64,000 bases of DNA from Branchiostoma floridae (taxonomy: Eukaryota; Chordata; Leptocardii; Amphioxiformes; Branchiostomatidae): contig NC_049989.1 in the NCBI RefSeq assembly GCF_000003815.2, forward strand, positions 17,522,144 through 17,586,143. Reading direction: 5' to 3'. How positions within the stretch are numbered: the first letter of the stretch is position 1; every line of letters begins with the position of its first letter. This document shows positions 43,601-46,600 of this stretch, piece after piece. Position numbers and translations under genes: made by a program. A model generated the notes under the pieces. It did no database searches. It saw nothing but the letters and a program-made list of their open reading frames with translations, and was not told where the DNA came from.

Positions 43601-46600
43601 GTAATATGTCAATAGGAAAATAAACACATAGGTTGGTTCAAAGAAAGAACAGATACAAAGAAATGTCCGTCTCTACAATGATCATAACACTCTAAAGCAA
43701 CACTCTCAGTGCTGCAATGGAAAAATGGTAATAAAACAAGATATGGTGAAGGAACATGAACATGTAGAAAGATGGTCTACAAAGTAAACCTGGTAGAGAA
43801 GAGAATGTCAAAGGAATTGATGACTGGTTCAAGTTGGAGAAAGAAAAAAAAAGAAGAGGAGTCAGTCAGAGTTGCCCCATGAAGGGATCGAAGGGTCACC
43901 TGGGAAAGTTGGTGTCCAAACTCGTCCAGTTTTTTCTGCAGCGGTGTCCTCTCGTTTTCTGTTTCCACCATCTCGTTGCGGATCTTTCCTGCAGAATAAC
44001 AGTGTGGTTGGCAAACAGGTTAAGATCTTATCTTGGTGTACAACCCCTCCAGAGAGAAAACCTTTCGTGTTTTGGAGCGAGCAGAGCATAGAAGAGGTGA
44101 ATCAGGAGCTTGTCAGGACCTTTGCTGCAGTACCTGTAAAAACAAACAGAGGGATCTTCTGATCAGTGTTTGTCAGAGAGACAGGAAAGGAAGGTTACCT
44201 TGCTCAGCTGCTCACCAAACTCGTCCAACTTCTGCTGAAGAGGGGTCTTCTCCGTCTCCGTGGCAACCATCTCATCACGGATTTTACCTTGGGTTCAGAC
44301 GGCCCCAACACAAGGAATCATGGGAACAGGAAACAACAGGGAACAGGGAGAGGAGGAGAGAAGAGGGTAGAAAGTTGGGAGGAAAGTTTTACCAGTACTT
44401 TTTTAATGATCAAGGACTTAAATCAACATATCACAGTCACTCACGTCTTAAGTCATTCAAGAATGGAAAACATGGAGGATAGAAATATGAGAGAAAATAA
44501 GGACTTTTCTTTTTAGTCGGGTAAATCATGGAAACAGTTTCTAATACAATCAACCTCATGCTGCAACACAGGTGAATGAGCACCACCAAATAACTTAAAA
44601 CCATTCCTTACAGAGTGGTCCTATTCTGATAAAAATTTGGTGTTTGGCTGAGCCCAAAGCATGGATCTCTAGAGTTAGGCTGAAGTACTACCACCAAAAC
44701 CCTGCCTTTGTGATCCATTAAGAATGGGGCAAGGCCTTCTTCCTTTTACAGCTGTTGCCTTCCAACACCTCGGGCACTGTAGTATTGATTTTATTTCTAT
44801 TTTGCACGCACAGGCTTAAGCCTGGGGTGAACCGACGACAGCAATATACGAGAGGGGAGAACCACAAAGGAACAACATGAAAGCCCCGTCAGAGGAACCA
44901 AGGGGTAACAGTTTTCTGCCCACTGGGTTTGGCAAATTAGGCTCTTGATGTACTTTCCCCCAATGCCTCATCCTTGAAGTGTGCCCAAGCAAGAAAAACT
45001 ATTCAGCCAATAACAGCATTTACTTGCAACCTTTAGAAAGGGGTTAAGTCGTTACAACGGTGCGTTAAGGTTTTTATCCATCTTTGTGGATTACGACAGC
45101 AGCAGTGCTTTTCAGTTTCCACCCTGCATACTAATGAACGTTCCCTTACCAATCTCTGTTGACTACTACTAATGAACGTTCCCTTACCAATCTCTGTTGA
45201 CTACTAACGAACGTTCCCTTACCAATCTCTGTTGACTACTACTAACGAACGTTCCCTTACCAATCTCTGTTGACTACTAACGAACGTTCCCTTACCAATC
45301 TCTGTTGACTACTAACGACCGTTCCCTTACCAATCTCTGTTGACTACTACTAATGAACGTTCCCTTACCAATCTCTGTTGACTACTAACGACCGTTCCCT
45401 TACCAATCTCTGTTGACTATAACAAACGTTCCCTTACCAATCTCTGTAGACAGTCCAGTTCTGATAACTAAAATGAACGTTCCCTTACCAATCTCTGTAG
45501 ACAGTCCAGTTCTGATAACTAATGAACATTCCCTTACCAATCTCTGTAGACAGTCCAGTTCCCATAACTAATGAACGTTCCCTTATCAATCTCTGTAGAC
45601 AGTCCAGTTCCGATGATTAATGAACGTTCCCTTACCAATCTCTGTTGACAGTCCAGTTCCGATAACGACTCCACTGCACTTTCCCGCAGCAATGTTGGTA
45701 CCCTGGTAAAGAAGGAAAAGTTATGTTTATCTTTCTTCAGATAATCTTTCAAAGACTACATTGTCAAATTTTCTGCATGAAAAGGTTTTGATTGACATCA
45801 GGGCTTAGCTTTGCCCCTAACAAATCATATTCAAGTGTAAACAGCCTTCAAAACATTCAAAGGAAAAACAGATTGGAGGATCTGATAATAACACTTGGTC
45901 CATACTACATTGGTCGGGAACCCAATACTGTATCTATGTTTTCATCTTTAGCCGCTGTCATGCCCATATACAGACATTAGTTTTTCTCTTCTGTTATGCA
46001 GCACATAAGTCCACTTTCCACTAGAGGATGCAACTATCATGTGACAGAATATTTGACAGATTGCAAAATAAATTTGATGGACAAAAACAAACTTTTCTTT
46101 TGTTTTGTGTGCAGAAATTCTCACAAGAGAAAGGTAAATTCCTGCAGGAAGAAAATTCTCTGCAGGAATTACCTTATAATCCATATCTTAATCATTAAAA
46201 GCAAAAATAGTACGATATGAGTTTTACGCATTTGATTTAGCTTGAAAACTGTTAAACTCCAATTTCTTCAGTAGTGGAAGAGAAAGTGACATACTGAGAA
46301 GAGGAGGTTCTTCTTGTCCTGGTTGACGGCTCGTGGGTCTGGGATGGGGTCGGTATGTTTGATCACACTCACACTCTCACCTGAGGGGAGAAACCACAAG
46401 TTTTAGTCAGGACATACAAAATACAGGTAACATTCAAAATTACCTGCACTAGACAAATTTTACCTGCACCACTCTGAATTTAGGATGTATGGATCATACT
46501 AAAATTGTTCAGGAACTATTGCTACTTTTTTCTTTATACTTTGTAGGTGTTAACATTCAATGCAGCTAATAACAATCCACCTACGCCTACATCATAGGAC

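Follow-up and report, generated by a model that had tools for sequence, protein, structure and literature searches.

How is a single 5' splice site chosen when the end of an exon and its donor are repeated many times in the intron that follows? The question is raised by a stretch of the Branchiostoma floridae genome 64 kb in length (the window), in which the end of a 67-nt exon on the minus strand (45702-45636) and its donor are present in 13 tandem copies. Tandem repeats over exon/intron boundaries, termed mirages, are known from the lancelet Adh3, globin, troponin C and PGBD5 genes according to PMC3087553 and PMC3902484. Both papers cite a 2002 Adh3 study by Canestro et al., to which PMC3087553 traces the class, and describe regular splicing as undisturbed by the lancelet mirages.

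Anatomy of the donor array

A search with the motif GATTG(G/A)TAAGG returned 13 occurrences in the array. The last base of the exon is 45636, and the last exon-equivalent bases of copies 2 to 13 are 45587, 45538, 45489, 45438, 45404, 45369, 45331, 45296, 45261, 45223, 45188 and 45150, giving spacings of 49, 49, 49, 51, 34, 35, 38, 35, 35, 38, 35 and 38 nt from the exon outward. The exon (exon 3 in the numbering used here; 23 residues) ends with ...GTTATCGGAACTGGACTGTCAACAGAGATTG at the donor TTG/GTAAGG, and the intron that houses the array (44288-45635, 1348 nt) begins with GTAAGGGAACGTTCATTA, both read on the minus strand. The 16-mer GATTGGTAAGGGAACG, allowing up to 2 mismatches, has 13 matches in the window, every one inside the array, compared with a mean of 0.00 in 100 dinucleotide shuffles, which rules out a chance origin. 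Outside the window three weak matches (69-72%) were found on contig C12, where they lie in a 32-bp array whose sequence differs from the donor array apart from a short stretch in common, and a search of a phage collection gave no match.

The array consists of two classes of unit, as revealed by Tandem Repeats Finder (TRF) and by alignment of the units. The proximal part (45439-45635, minus strand) contains four units of 49-51 nt, each with approximately 31 exon-derived and 18 intron nt; in the 49-nt unit the 31 nt align to the exon end with at least 2 mismatches. The distal part (45129-45438, minus strand) contains copies 6-13, eight units measuring 34, 35 or 38 nt, and the intron end of the last copy, with about 14 exon nt in each unit, mostly preceded by GTA or GTAGTA. 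GTAAGG is intact in 11 of the 12 extra copies; the exception, copy 2 in the proximal part, reads ATAAGG and has lost the GT. These results bear out the initial annotation in its coordinates, strand and count of 13 copies, in the 11 extra copies with GTAAGG, in the greater length of units near the exon (49-51 nt versus 34-38 nt farther out) and in its central proposal that the exon end and donor have been multiplied into a minisatellite. The amount of exon that it assigned to each proximal unit, about 22 bp, was too low.

The array is present once at full length in the assembly, indicating that no second haplotype is represented. The copy number could in principle be an error of assembly, by collapse or false expansion. 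N gaps occur at or near other arrays in the assembly (L026, L006 and others), and one mirage was aberrantly assembled in an earlier B. floridae draft according to PMC3087553. The gaps indicate that array lengths are not to be taken as exact. However, the window contains no N, the units differ from one another in length and sequence in an ordered manner and the same architecture is seen again at other loci, leaving an assembly error as the source of the copy number very unlikely.

The host gene

As judged from protein-sequence matches and the reading frame, the host gene of the array is that of a SERCA-type calcium ATPase. The 23 residues of exon 3 matched SERCA2 structures in a phmmer search (six sequences, E 0.00035-0.0004), and tblastn located 19 SERCA exons in the window, all of them on its minus strand. 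The bait was a SERCA protein sequence, of which the earlier residues 108-154 matched outside the window, in the flank (L005). The mapped exons have AG/GT borders and constitute a single open frame, given one member of each of two alternative pairs. The intron with the donor array directly precedes the first of these pairs, consisting of alternative A (44199-44287) and alternative B (43900-43988), both on the minus strand, 89 nt in length and placed by tblastn and borders. The second pair consists of 39328-39165 and 39128-38965 (minus strand, 164 nt each), separated by only 36 nt. Inclusion of A together with B breaks the frame, and inclusion of both members of either pair gives stops in all three frames. 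These stops, together with the 36-nt gap in the second pair, are the reason that the pairs look like tandemly duplicated exons of equal length that are spliced in a mutually exclusive manner.

Two further features of the window lie apart from the SERCA exons. The long open frames at 11343-13488 (plus strand) read like a protein with RING, B-box and NHL domains, which we take to be TRIM-like. A match to 5S rRNA at 6276-6386 (minus strand) scores exactly at the Rfam gathering score (38 bits) and may be a degenerate copy or belong to a repeat.

Predicted consequence of decoy use and proposed basis of donor choice

Each of the 11 intact decoys was joined to each of the two possible next exons. In every case a stop occupies nt 115-117 of the lengthened exon and starts 48 nt beyond the true donor, since the 49-nt unit shifts the frame by one and copy 2 is consequently read GAT TGA TAA. 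Thus, the expectation in the initial annotation that use of a decoy would truncate the product is right for all 11 and for both next exons. Copy 2 itself ends at this very point, and when joined to exon 5 it would keep the frame open up to exon 7, the limit of the test, but it is without GT; the first copy is the sole one with GT to yield an open frame. Rare use of a later intact copy would lead to an early stop and probably to decay of that mRNA.

It was also proposed that splicing must select the first of many near-identical donors, and this view is supported. Bases -3 to +6 are identical in all copies but copy 2, ruling out weaker decoys as the explanation for the choice. The predicted accessibility of the true donor in folded RNA (0.28) is within the range of the copies (0.18-0.47), indicating that the decoys are not hidden by folding and that the choice is not accounted for in this way. 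At -8.5 kcal/mol, the U1 pairing predicted for the true donor is average among the 18 SERCA donors, which range from -2.9 to -11.1 kcal/mol.

What distinguishes the copies is distance from the upstream acceptor: the true donor lies 67 nt from it and the intact decoys 165 to 553 nt. PMC9225289 describes a preference for the nearest donor across the exon when the flanking introns exceed about 250 nt, a limit derived from organisms other than the lancelet, and an advantage for the upstream of identical donors in minigenes under exon definition. The same source summarises classic work in which, under intron definition, it was the downstream donor that prevailed over its competitors. The introns flanking exon 3 are 592 and 1348 nt in length, and exon definition would be the simplest explanation for choice of the first donor. 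Conversely, if lancelet introns of this size are recognised by intron definition, use of decoys is predicted, which would count against a neutral reading of the array.

Frequency of arrays at exon/intron boundaries

The other boundaries of the SERCA gene were examined for near copies of themselves. In a test with 28-mers and 60 shuffles per boundary, a near copy less than 2 kb away that none of the shuffles reached was detected for 5 of the 37 mapped boundaries; one of the five, donor 18, scored 21/28, below the highest shuffle score of any boundary (22), and was counted for the four exact 17-mers in its 153-bp array. Donors 7, 12 and 17 (1, 2 and 6 of 60 shuffles) and acceptor 3 (1/60) were left out. 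The five boundaries are the donors of exons 3, 6, 14 and 18 and the acceptor of exon 8, with 1 to 12 extra copies each. All are on the minus strand. The exon 6 donor (42752-42932, last base 42911) has its copy 135 nt into the intron in a 46-nt repeat of 96% identity (0/60 shuffles), and the exon 8 acceptor (40851-41036, first base 40862) has its copy 152 nt upstream in the intron in a 34-nt repeat of 97% identity (0/60). The exon 14 donor (36330-36490, last base 36478) is matched at 23 of 28 bases by a copy 126 nt into the intron (0/60). At the exon 18 donor (33418-33996, last base 33993) TRF detected the 153-bp array, with three copies at 33833, 33680 and 33527 and the exact 17-mer at all four places. 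Use of the decoy at exons 6, 8 and 18 likewise gives a stop.

Under a coarser criterion (36-mer, 80%, within 2 kb) near copies were found at 3 of 37 boundaries, at 256 of 2128 positions inside introns and at none of 231 inside exons, the last count with the alternative exon pairs excluded. By these counts there is no excess of near copies at boundaries over introns, and the boundaries look like the edge of the zone in which repeats are tolerated and not like special targets.

Of 20 stretches of 10 kb placed arbitrarily in the genome, two likewise contain boundary arrays. The figure is rough, since both were chosen by eye from lists; five of the 20 contain 100 to 4765 N. The first stretch (L008, C2:3000001-3010000) contains at 7447-6075 on the minus strand a 50-bp array of the donor type with 26.4 copies by TRF, in which GTAAGG or a similar sequence follows CCCAG in 25 copies starting from the end of a 72-residue open frame. 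The array is larger than that of the SERCA donor, and copies distant from the frame often read CCATGTAAGG. In the second (L018, C12:3500001-3510000) the array is of the acceptor type: at intervals of 167 bp (9227-9997, plus strand), TTCCGTTAG stands five times before an exon-like sequence, presumably COG3-like. An earlier decayed copy is also present, and the 10-kb stretch ends within the array. In both cases the exon is putative, recognised by its reading frame. Small as the sample is, two cases among 20 stretches suggest that boundary arrays are frequent in the genome. A further candidate (L026), a 117-bp array of 28 copies with GTGAG in every unit, was rejected as a coding repeat of 39 codons that is open throughout.

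Strong donors are found in 4 of 21 tandem arrays with a period of at least 20, compared with 1.27 expected if arrays carried them as often as unique sequence; two of the four are arms of one element. In the window an inverted-repeat element occupies 3184-4688; each of its two arms is an array with units of about 51 bp, and the arms lie on opposite strands. Motifs resembling ACAG/GTAAGT and TATAG are present in many of the units, and the outer flank of one arm mirrors that of the other. The element is possibly a foldback-type transposon.

Origin of the array and tests for function

We consider it highly probable that the donor array is a lancelet mirage produced by tandem duplication and minisatellite turnover, that it is essentially neutral and that the first donor is chosen by exon definition. 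The array would have started with a tandem duplication that joined approximately intron position +18 back to position -31 of the SERCA exon, followed by expansion and homogenisation through the slippage or unequal exchange of ordinary minisatellite turnover. The 34-38-nt units farther out would then have arisen by loss of about 14 bp and expansion of GTA. The copies sit on the intron side, and with long introns flanking the exon, a spliceosome that matches the acceptor to the closest donor of equal strength on the other side of the exon would arrive at the first copy. The array would be tolerated because exon definition picks the donor nearest to the upstream acceptor.

An alternative is that the copies are retained for a function as uncut sites that bind U1 snRNP, thereby strengthening definition of the short exon, blocking early polyadenylation in the long intron or tuning choice of the alternative exon. 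If this were true, lancelets would adjust the splicing of many genes through the length of minisatellites. The retention of GTAAGG in all but one of the extra copies is consistent with such a role, as are the location of the intron before an alternative exon pair and the AATAAA in the same intron about 350 nt past the last copy (about 44795). Columns adjoining the donor are also less variable than more distant ones: 1 of the 19 columns from -10 to +9 varies among copies versus 5 of the 9 from +10 to +18, a difference that could be a hint of constraint, with a split chosen post hoc and copies that are not independent. However, 1 of 72 cells is changed in the donor hexamer versus 15 of 312 in neighbouring columns, which for cells that are not independent is no clear excess of conservation, and these counts give no clear signal of selection on the decoys. 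Furthermore, such arrays occur at many boundaries of the genome, acceptors included, and a role for U1 does not explain acceptor units. The AATAAA lies within 1.3 kb of AT-rich DNA where its occurrence by chance would be expected. The suggestion in the initial annotation that the array may help to define the exon by recruiting U1 found no support, hexamer conservation, U1 pairing and accessibility all being ordinary, and a U1-dependent function of the copies is highly improbable.

The array could also be a step in the gain of an intron by tandem duplication, in which the exonic part of the repeat may become an exon. Gain of introns by tandem duplication is proposed for globin genes in PMC3087553. 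However, the SERCA array is located inside one intron between exons of an open frame, and extension through any intact copy reaches a stop; intron gain at this site seems very unlikely. Lancelet boundary arrays constitute natural tests of how the spliceosome chooses among many near-identical sites.

Comparison with known mirages

The SERCA donor array is a further mirage and not new in kind. It is a minisatellite-like tandem repeat according to TRF and the list of units, and its unit (31 + 18 nt) spans the boundary of a real coding exon in an open frame. The splice signal is present in many but not all copies (GTAAGG in 11 of the 12 extra copies), and the host is a cephalochordate, B. floridae, the genome of which also contains an Adh3-like locus with boundary arrays. 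A huntingtin peptide published for B. floridae (PMC2206037) matches this genome at 97%, short of full identity, over 36 of its 39 residues. Further marks of the mirage class are normal mRNA from the exon-proximal signal and length polymorphism or somatic instability. The array adds one gene to the published list of mirages, and no priority is claimed for a mirage in SERCA.

The Adh3-like locus (L030, C6:27454001-27461000), the positive control, was obtained as the best genome match to human ADH5, with residues 5-116 matched in two exons at 76-78%. The donor CAG/GTGAGA, which follows ...CQKI(R), is present in 10 copies of a 33-bp array, with CAGGTGAG kept in 9 of the 10, and the acceptor before the same exon is repeated in about seven 59-bp units, which include the beginning of the exon. 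Arrays are located at or beside four successive boundaries within 1.4 kb (27-1376 of the locus), the order being a 26-29-bp array before the first matched exon, a 29-bp array after it, the 59-bp array of the acceptor type and the 33-bp array of the donor type.

The globin mirages of BflGb6 and BflGb9, like the SERCA array, have a tandemly duplicated boundary with splice signals in many copies, as described in PMC3087553. They differ in that the units are 150-160 bp and few in number, and the BflGb6 mirage is on the acceptor side, with 6 and 3 units in two haplotypes according to the same paper. In unit length the array at the SERCA exon 18 donor (153 bp) is near BflGb6 and BflGb9. The PGBD5 repeats differ from the SERCA array in being imperfect, with units of 60 and 108 bp according to PMC3902484. 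The Adh3 mirages share with the SERCA array a short-unit tandem array anchored on the exon/intron boundary with the splice signal in most copies, and the SERCA case differs in gene, in unit and in having two classes of unit (49-51 and 34-38 nt) in 13 copies. The SERCA array and the donor array of the Adh3-like locus have the same architecture.
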